This document shows, in pieces, positions 8,292 through 38,415 of a DNA stretch of 64,000 bases. The notes beneath the pieces are model-generated. The model was not told the DNA's origin, ran no database searches, and saw nothing but the letters and a program-made list of their open reading frames with translations. Source of the DNA: Halorubrum aethiopicum (lineage in GTDB: Archaea; Halobacteriota; Halobacteria; Halobacteriales; Haloferacaceae); assembly GCF_001542905.1 (NCBI RefSeq), contig NZ_LOAJ01000001.1:1302001-1366000 (forward strand), written 5' to 3'. Every line of letters begins with the position of its first letter. The stretch's first letter is position 1. The position numbers were made by a program, and so were the translations under genes.

Positions 8292-8516
8292 GCCGGCGCG
8301 GTGACCACCGCCAAAGTCCCGCCCGACCGCCCCGCAACCGCACCTCACGCCTCCCCAACCTCGCGACTCCCTCCGCTCCGCTTCGGTCGCCGCGTCCAGC
8401 GAGAATCGAAGATTCTCTGGCAGCCGGCGGCGGAGCCGCCGGCGACCTCGCGGGCTCCTCGCGGCCCCGGGCCGCTCGGAGGCGCGCCACCGTTCCGGAC
8501 GACGGTCGCCGGCTCG
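8292..8516. repeat. Dispersed non-coding hairpin repeat, copy A
   Basis: This lies in the 299-bp gap between the PhzF gene and the small membrane protein gene. It shares two blocks with copy B: a 5' module gcggtgaccaccgccaaag, which is itself an inverted repeat (GCGGTG/CACCGC), and a core cgcacctcacgcctcccca-like block (here with one mismatch) beginning near 8338. Downstream are a 7-bp hairpin (gagaatc/gattctc, 8402-8418) and an 8-bp GC-rich hairpin (GCCGGCGG/CCGCCGGC, 8423-8443), then gcgcgccaccg near 8482. No coding potential in keeping with its neighbours is seen. Confidence 0.7.
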
Positions 8517-16118: not shown

Positions 16119-16251
16119 GCGGAGCGAGGCGGAAGGGGTTCGGTCGAACCCACTTTCGTACGCTCGTTGCGCCACGAGACGGTCGCTAGAATTCGGTTGC
16201 TAGTAGAGTGGGTGTTACAGGTGGTCTTACTCTGACAGAAACGCGACCGTT

Positions 16252-16511
16252 GCTGGCGCGGTGAACACCGCCAAAGCCCCAGTCGCGAGGGCTCGGAGGC
16301 CTTGCTGTGCTCCTCGCTCGCTTCGCTCGCTGCGGTGCTTACGTCGCCGAGCGTCGCCCTCGCGACTGCCCCTTTGAGTCCCCCCGCTCCCCACAGCCCC
16401 GCACCTCACACCTCCCCAGCCTCGCGGCTCGCTCCGCTCGCCGCGTCCCTCGCGTTCCGGTCGCGGGCCTCCGGCCCGCTCCCGGGCGCGCCACCGCTCC
16501 GGCGGTCGCTC
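16252..16511. repeat. Dispersed non-coding hairpin repeat, copy B
   Basis: This copy occupies most of the 483-bp gap between the DUF4010 gene and the CBS gene. It repeats the 5' module of copy A (gcggtgaacaccgccaaag, 16259-16277) and the core block gcacctcacacctccccagc (near 16401). Between the two is an extra section bounded by a perfect 13-bp inverted repeat (CAGTCGCGAGGGC at 16280-16292, complement at 16356-16368). The core block is followed by a hairpin with 7-bp arms (GCGGGCC/GGCCCGC, 16463-16479) and gcgcgccaccg. The flanks 16119-16251 and 16512-16601 hold nothing I can name. Confidence 0.7.
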
Positions 16512-16601
16512 GTTGCTTCGACTTTACTGACCGAACCGCGAGGGGAACCGACGCCGCTGGCGTGTTCGAAGCGGGCGGAACCGGGCATCGCGCCCTCGCT
16601 T

Positions 16602-28507: not shown

Positions 28508-28822
28508 GTGGAAACCGGACTAGGTCGGGCGGTTAGGCCCCGCTCGTCACCCGCGAGGTAGTCTTCAGCGGGGACCGAACACCGGGCGCGTCCGGATAGA
28601 CCGGCGCGGGCCCCGAGAGCCAACGTGGAAGCCTCGTCCGCCGGGGACAGCGGTCCGTGGCGCCCGCTCGCAGGAGCGGCCCGTCGCGGTTCGTCGGCGA
28701 CAACGGGTCAGGCGCGGAAGCGAGCAGCCCACCGCCGGACGCCCGTCGCTCGTCGGGTCGCGGGGTGGAGGAGGCAACCGGGATACCCCGTGCCGGAACA
28801 CCGGGCTAGCTCGGCCGTCCAC
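28508..28822 (+). ncRNA. ffs: Signal recognition particle RNA (7S RNA)
   Basis: The gene falls in a 502-bp gap with no good reading frame. The 5' part has aggtcgggcggttaggcccc, typical of the archaeal Alu-domain 5' region. The strictly conserved SRP54-binding helix 8 is at 28706-28730 (gggtcaggcgcggaagcgagcagccc, with GGAAGC and GAGCAGCC). The ends can pair as helix 1 (gtgga at 28508-28512 with tccac at 28818-28822). About 315 nt is normal for haloarchaea. Ends are accurate to perhaps 10 nt. The RNA scaffolds SRP19 and SRP54 for co-translational membrane targeting. Confidence 0.92.
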
Positions 28823-28932
28823 CATTCATACCGGATCCGCAGTCGCGTAGCGGCCGTGCTCCCGCCCCCGCGCTCCCGTCCGATCGACCCGGAACGGTCG
28901 GCGTCAAATCGGCGGCGAGATCGGCGGCGTTC

Positions 28933-38295: not shown

Positions 38296-38415
38296 CCCGC
38301 ACCGCACCTCACGCCTCCCCAGCCTCGCCGCGGCCGCCACCGGCGGCCGCGGGCTCCCTCGCGCGCGACTCGCGGCGTCGCCGCTCGTTTCGCACGCGCC
38401 ACCGCGACGGAGGGT
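38296..38415. repeat. Dispersed non-coding hairpin repeat, copy C
   Basis: This partial copy fills much of the 243-bp gap between the PadR-like gene and the HAD phosphatase gene. It has the core block ccgcacctcacgcctcccca shared with copies A and B, then a perfect 11-bp hairpin (CCGCGGCCGCC/GGCGGCCGCGG at 38328-38352 with loop acc) at the place where the other copies also have a hairpin, and gcgccaccgcg near 38396. The 5' module gcggtg..caccgc is absent. Confidence 0.65.

Follow-up and report, generated by a model that had tools for sequence, protein, structure and literature searches.

We describe a large dispersed family of non-coding elements in the genome of the haloarchaeon Halorubrum aethiopicum, whose sequence evolves fast while the fold is kept, through compensatory change and through the exchange of whole hairpins between copies. 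Three copies (A, B and C) lie in the window, the 64,000-nucleotide stretch of this genome that was analysed. The reading we prefer, and to which we give about an even chance, is that of a haloarchaeal, chromosome-borne element lacking a transposase, which is selected for a strand-specific fold acting as single-stranded DNA.

A dispersed family with a modular layout

The core CACCTCACRCCTCCCCA occurs exactly at three positions in the window (8341, 16402 and 38305), always on the plus strand and as the initial annotation had described, and near matches to it number five, far beyond chance (shuffle mean, 0.39). Across the whole 3.3-Mb genome we counted 118 exact cores (CCTCACRCCTCCCCA; reversed-pattern control, 0) and at least 128 model matches, corresponding to a density of ∼42 per Mb of main chromosome. 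All model-match counts are lower bounds, because at most 150 candidates were scored for one genome and at most 21 in large scans. Copies A, B and C are thus not a set of three but members of a large dispersed family, in agreement with the many genomic copies that had been predicted. An orientation bias, which had been proposed as well, was not found overall: the exact cores divide 55 to 63 between the plus and minus strands, and there are no orientation domains. We extracted 103 distinct copies with their flanks from this genome; apart from the surroundings of copies, the DNA that we read covered the main contig's end and both small contigs.

Read along the plus strand, the element opens with an outer tail and the palindrome GGCGCGGTGAACACCGCCAAAG; next come a large hairpin, a linker containing CTTTGAGTCCCACCC and the core. 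The core is followed by a first hairpin (SL1), which the linker TCCCTCGCG joins to a second (SL2), and behind SL2 stand GCGCGCCACCGC and a tail that finishes near CTGTACTGACC. The conserved body measures ∼230–260 nt in full copies, and the element ∼350–450 nt including the tails; its invariant flanks are GGTGGCGCG and GAGGCTGGGGAGG.

Copy A (model match at 8339–8493 on the minus strand, E 9.5e-9) contains the palindromic 5' module GGCGCGGTGACCACCGCCAAAG (8295–8316, plus strand), which is common to most copies and forms the 3' hairpin on the folded minus strand, and the conserved core CACCTCACGCCTCCCCAACCTCG (8341–8363, plus strand). SL1 has a longer loop (8364–8394, minus strand) and is separated from SL2 by an inserted extra hairpin module GCAGCCGGCGGCGGAGCCGCCGGC (8395–8452, no strand assigned). 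SL2 and the conserved end GCGCGCCACCG occupy 8453–8492 on the minus strand; read on the plus strand this hairpin is CTCC, TC, GCGGCC ... GGCCGC, TC, GGAG, with the tandem GA/GA on the minus strand.

Copy B (model match at 16400–16497 on the minus strand, E 1.8e-17) spans ∼16202–16532. The element is thus larger than the initial annotation had stated, whereas the dispersal it reported is borne out. An outer 5' tail (AGTAGAGTGGGTGTTACAGG..., 16202–16254, plus strand), one of several tail types common to copies, precedes the palindromic 5' module GGCGCGGTGAACACCGCCAAAGCCCCAG (16255–16282, plus strand); the occurrence of this module in both A and B had been noted correctly. The large middle hairpin (16272–16376, minus strand; CAAAG, GGG/GGG, CAG TCGCGAGGGC ..., with a GA zipper at its end) is missing from A and C. 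It is followed by the conserved core (16402–16424, plus strand), SL1 (16423–16445; CGGC GA GC GGA GC GA GCCG on the minus strand), SL2 with the end GCGCGCCACCGC (16455–16497; CCGG GA GCGGGCC GGA GGCCCGC GA CCGG on the minus strand) and an outer tail TCCGGCGGTCGCTCGTTGCTTCGACTTTACTGACC common to many copies (16498–16532, minus strand).

Copy C (model match at 38303–38405 on the minus strand, E 1.3e-5) comprises the conserved core (38305–38327, plus strand), an SL1 that is a long perfect hairpin without GA/GA (38328–38352, minus strand) and an SL2 with GA/GA and the end GCACGCGCCACCG (38366–38404, minus strand). All three copies terminate in GCGCCACCG, the common end recognized previously.

Additional repeats are found in and beside the element. 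Small extra palindromic modules (for example CAGCCGGCGGCTCCGCCGCCGGC beside GAGGCGCTCCGCGCCTC) lie within its hairpin loops and linkers like nested insertions (at 8395–8452 in the window, and at L133, L141, L152, L158, L193 and others). On the RNA 3' side of some copies (L132, L138, L161, L178, L181), a ∼48-nt unit, CAGCAACGACGTACAGCCGAGCGGCTGGGGCTTTGGAGGTGTTCACC, is present in tandem. Just past the plus-strand 3' tail of the element, at L135, L140, L148, L151, L164, L186 and L201, lies another dispersed repeat, GAGTGAGCATCCGCGAGCGAAGCGAGCGGTTCACCGACGG...GGAGTCGGCTTTTTCCCTCCAGGTTTTTCG, which likewise contains T-runs and a hairpin with GA mismatches (CCGC GA GCGAAGC GA GCGG).

The hairpin fold is conserved while its sequence varies

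Two or three hairpins per element fold on the strand opposite to that read in the initial annotation. Almost every SL1 and SL2 follows a common plan of 4 bp, TC opposite TC, 2–10 bp and 3–4 nt. On the minus strand this plan reads as a stem of 4 bp, a GA/GA mismatch in tandem and an inner stem, capped mostly by a GNA or GNNA loop. GNA/GNNA capping is seen in both SL hairpins and at the tip of the middle one.

Among 38 aligned copies, 98.9% of the cells are paired and both sides have changed in 17 of 25 pairs. In 500 shuffles, not one of our five covariation measures was matched, and pairing falls to 23–52% with slid partners. Unguided RNAalifold analysis of 31 near-full-length copies yields 63 pairs (both sides changed in 34) and recovers the large hairpin with its 2-bp zipper steps split by GA, a feature that was not imposed. 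To avoid choosing intact copies, we anchored a test of all 103 copies on the core alone, and found a perfect design hairpin in 94/103 copies versus 1/103 flanks and 0/103 shuffles. Because the letters of the hairpins change while the mismatch shape stays, the fold is what is preserved.

Selection on structure had been suggested before from a comparison of arms quoted for A, B and C as if they occupied one position. These are three non-homologous hairpins: the A arms GCCGGCGG/CCGCCGGC derive from the extra module at 8395–8452, between SL1 and SL2, the B arms GCGGGCC/GGCCCGC form the inner stem of SL2 (16455–16486) and the C arms represent the perfect-hairpin form of SL1 (38328–38352). The arm comparison thus does not hold, but its conclusion is strongly supported, since homologous stems covary, with compensatory changes on both sides. 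Neither of the two outcomes that had been named as refuting it, a genome with these three copies alone and arm changes that do not compensate, was observed.

The covariation counts are of non-independent events, because copies within a genome exchange sequence. This is partly answered by a hairpin swap at one site (see below) and by relatives in other families, in which the hairpin becomes a zipper that alternates 2-bp steps with GA/GA pairs. Many of these relatives carry an SL1 such as GAT-GA-GC-GA-GC-GAA-GC-GA-GC-GA-ATC, with covarying 2-bp steps, or GAT-GA-GC-GA-AC-GAA-GT-GA-GC-GA-ATC; the GC, AC, GT, CT and CC steps vary pairwise, which is independent support for a structural role of the GA pairs.

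Gene context, turnover and rearrangement

According to a codon-usage-based gene caller all 103 copies are intergenic and none overlaps a gene; the intergenic location noted earlier for the three window copies is confirmed by these calls. No open frame explains the copies and no transposase is linked to them, again as previously stated. Convergent gene gaps harbor 45 copies, compared with 3/27 gaps in the window (p 0.0015), and divergent gaps 15 copies, compared with 9/27 (p 0.047).

We find presence and absence of the element with intact flanks between close relatives. A site near 955 kb (G000:C1) is filled in Halorubrum aethiopicum only and is empty, measuring 17–57 bp, in six relatives. Site B is filled in genomes G203 and G171 and empty in G202 and most others, and at other sites the element is common to subsets of relatives. 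Comparing occupied and empty sites, we could see no target-site duplication or sharp boundary, the empty sites being too divergent for a perfect test. At one site occupied in both this genome (G000) and G203, identical flanks bear different SL1/SL2 arms. The hairpins have thus been exchanged in place, probably through gene conversion.

Another copy marks a rearrangement. The sequences to the left and right of the copy at ∼950.7 kb (G000:C1; L161 ∼5.5–5.9 kb) lie apart in G014, G008 and G203, and in G014 and G008 a part of the element is found beside each of the separated flanks. The presence of element parts on both sides of the breakpoint suggests recombination between copies as the cause of the rearrangement.

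The minus strand folds, more likely as DNA than as RNA

We counted stem mismatches in hairpins that contain a single non-Watson-Crick pair, giving G.T and A.C equal treatment. In this strict, symmetric parse the minus strand shows 36 G.T versus 10 A.C mismatches (p 1.6e-4), and an earlier count in the same genome gave 20 and 7. A looser strand-bias parse, which includes more copies, gave only 44 versus 33, and we rely on the strict one. The excess of G.T over A.C thus points to the minus strand as the one that must fold.

Both the excess of G.T over A.C and the tandem GA pairs also fit RNA, which counts against a single-stranded DNA fold. The minus strand may be transcribed into a small RNA or into a 3'-untranslated part of a message, with a role in stability, protein binding or end formation. 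Such a structured RNA is possible, and we rate it clearly behind the DNA reading. It would account for the CG, UG and UA states seen in the covariation on the minus strand, for the clustering of copies at gene 3' ends (133/206 flanking gene ends) and for the T-rich tracts in which some copies finish on the RNA 3' side. Yet copies between tandem genes show no sense bias (16 sense, 27 antisense), no conserved sequence is found upstream of the 5' tail, and ∼10 copies begin 4–21 bp from a gene end, several of them too close for a promoter to fit. The lack of a sense bias and the starts close to gene ends disfavor an autonomous RNA gene, and none is evident.

The loops speak for DNA as well. Short-stem hairpins carry GNA loops in 33/38 cases, and the tetraloops are of the GNNA type with no preference for GNRA (14 GNYA, 6 GNRA). 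They match the rule for extra-stable DNA mini-hairpins, a GNA or GNNA loop together with at least two G-C pairs (PMC4686876), and ignore the GNRA preference of RNA. Wobble pairs are rare, an estimated ∼2% of stem pairs versus 12/108 in the fold of the SRP RNA. A search of the window with Rfam 15 returned no match for the element, and in a permissive Rfam search with copy B the best match was far under threshold. The sole Rfam match in the window is an archaeal SRP RNA gene (28513–28824, plus strand, E 5e-37). Taken together, the fold more likely acts as single-stranded DNA than as RNA.

In this genome the element is absent from the secondary contigs

In a sample of the genus Halorubrum the element is present in 22/22 genomes, with at least 16–21 matches in each. 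Exact cores outside our genome come almost all from Halorubrum, and weaker matches occur in other families of the class Halobacteria, whose relatives of the element retain GGTGGCGCG, GAGGGA and GGYTGGGGAGG. Distant genomes with a single copy have ordinary genes as its neighbors. A class-wide count of the short string GAGCGAAGCGAGC was uninformative, its reversed control being itself a GA hairpin.

All 128 model matches in our genome map to the main contig, and the plasmid-like secondary contigs (280 kb) contain none, compared with ∼12 expected (Poisson p 8e-6). We located no exact core in the sampled stretches of contigs C2 and C3, and across all of C2 and C3 no model match fell below E 0.04. 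Public haloarchaeal plasmids, among them at least 14 Halorubrum plasmid records, contain weak relatives only, and a phage collection gave no match. Contig C2 carries an Orc1/Cdc6-like gene, and a plasmid of Halorubrum trapanicum has a counterpart with 94% identity. As copies on plasmids would be expected of a freely mobile element, their absence from the secondary contigs counts against free mobility.

A binding site for a chromosomal protein, another proposal of the initial annotation, would fit this chromosome-only distribution. A host protein of the main chromosome may bind the element for chromosome organization or recombination, the copies being kept for this role. The fold is intact in nearly all copies, and one copy coincides in relatives with a rearrangement breakpoint that has parts of the element to either side. 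However, positions turn over between close species, the spacing of copies along the chromosome looks random, orientation domains are absent, and the secondary contigs, which are lower in G+C (mostly 0.53–0.63 versus 0.68–0.71 in sampled main-contig stretches), may simply be recent. We therefore consider this explanation improbable. Still less probable, and disfavored, is quasi-palindrome correction free of selection, in which intrastrand template switching copies arm onto arm: it would explain paired changes and nested hairpins such as the copy A insert, but would erase mismatches, yet nearly all copies retain GA/GA, and the wobble pairs show a strand-specific bias.

A model for the element

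For the preferred reading, a selected fold acting as single-stranded DNA, we envisage that the minus strand is exposed in replication, repair or supercoiling. A putative hairpin-processing or hairpin-binding protein would recognize the fold by its shape and might let the element seed new intergenic sites, resembling the reading of REP and PATE hairpins or of integron attC sites. Homologous recombination between copies would shuffle the hairpins, and purifying selection would remove insertions within genes and promoters. Against this model, neither a recombinase nor a transposase is linked to the element. More tentatively, and with well under an even chance, the element may be class-wide, with a GA-zipper single-stranded DNA fold (2–4-bp steps, tandem G.A, GNA caps), a putative dedicated reader protein and a restriction to main chromosomes.

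The element would be an abundant one in a well-studied class of archaea, and the evidence of selection on a folded single strand, its non-Watson-Crick pairs included, is unusually clear. It raises the testable question of whether archaea select throughout their genomes for single-stranded folds of chromosomal DNA, and which protein would be responsible. Its hairpins further form a naturally occurring series with GA mismatches in high salt, and the element has probably caused rearrangement breakpoints in Halorubrum.

Comparison with known systems

We found no description of the element in the open-access literature, where its sequence strings return unrelated papers, and it is apparently undescribed. 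The initial annotation had suggested a REP/BIME-like element. REPs are palindromes of 20–50 nt preceded by a GTAG (or CGTC) tag, and the RAYT/TnpAREP transposase reads them as single-stranded DNA in a strand-specific manner (PMC8266576, PMC3733652). Our element likewise is intergenic, has >100 copies and forms imperfect hairpins with conserved mismatches on one strand, but it is several hundred nucleotides long, contains three hairpins, shows no GTAG/CGTC tag and resides in a host without a Y1/RAYT transposase. Because length, tag and transposase all fail, it is not a REP. A search for Y1_Tnp (PF01797) in our genome returned 0 hits, with positive controls detected. Across the genus this domain is patchy (42/53 genomes), and several of the 11 genomes without it carry many copies. 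A model search at the four TnpB loci of our genome returned nothing significant for the element. With no Y1_Tnp in the genome and no element at its TnpB loci, we rejected a link to IS200/IS605. The element also differs from MITEs in that its copies share no inverted ends and show no target-site duplication.

Integron attC sites resemble the element in that structure is kept with little sequence conservation and a single folded DNA strand is used (PMC2727003); the abstract of that paper makes no mention of a GA/GA and GNA-loop design. Copies of our element, in contrast, occur singly, flanked by ordinary genes. DNA mini-hairpins of the d(GCGAAGC) type share the GNA/GNNA loops on G-C stems, with identical loops, but are described as stable DNA fragments rather than as an element that recurs across a genome and has tandem GA steps (PMC4686876).

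The nearest relatives are the PATEs (palindrome-associated transposable elements) of Haloquadratum walsbyi (PMC3119063). Like our element they are haloarchaeal, dispersed and heterogeneous, too short to encode a transposase, and have internal palindromes, no inverted terminal repeats and no target duplication found; other palindromes insert into them, and they vary in presence between relatives. The palindromes of PATEs resemble IS605 ends, whereas our element is unlike the four TnpB loci of its own genome, and its copies are united by the GA/GA hairpin architecture and are nearly all chromosomal.
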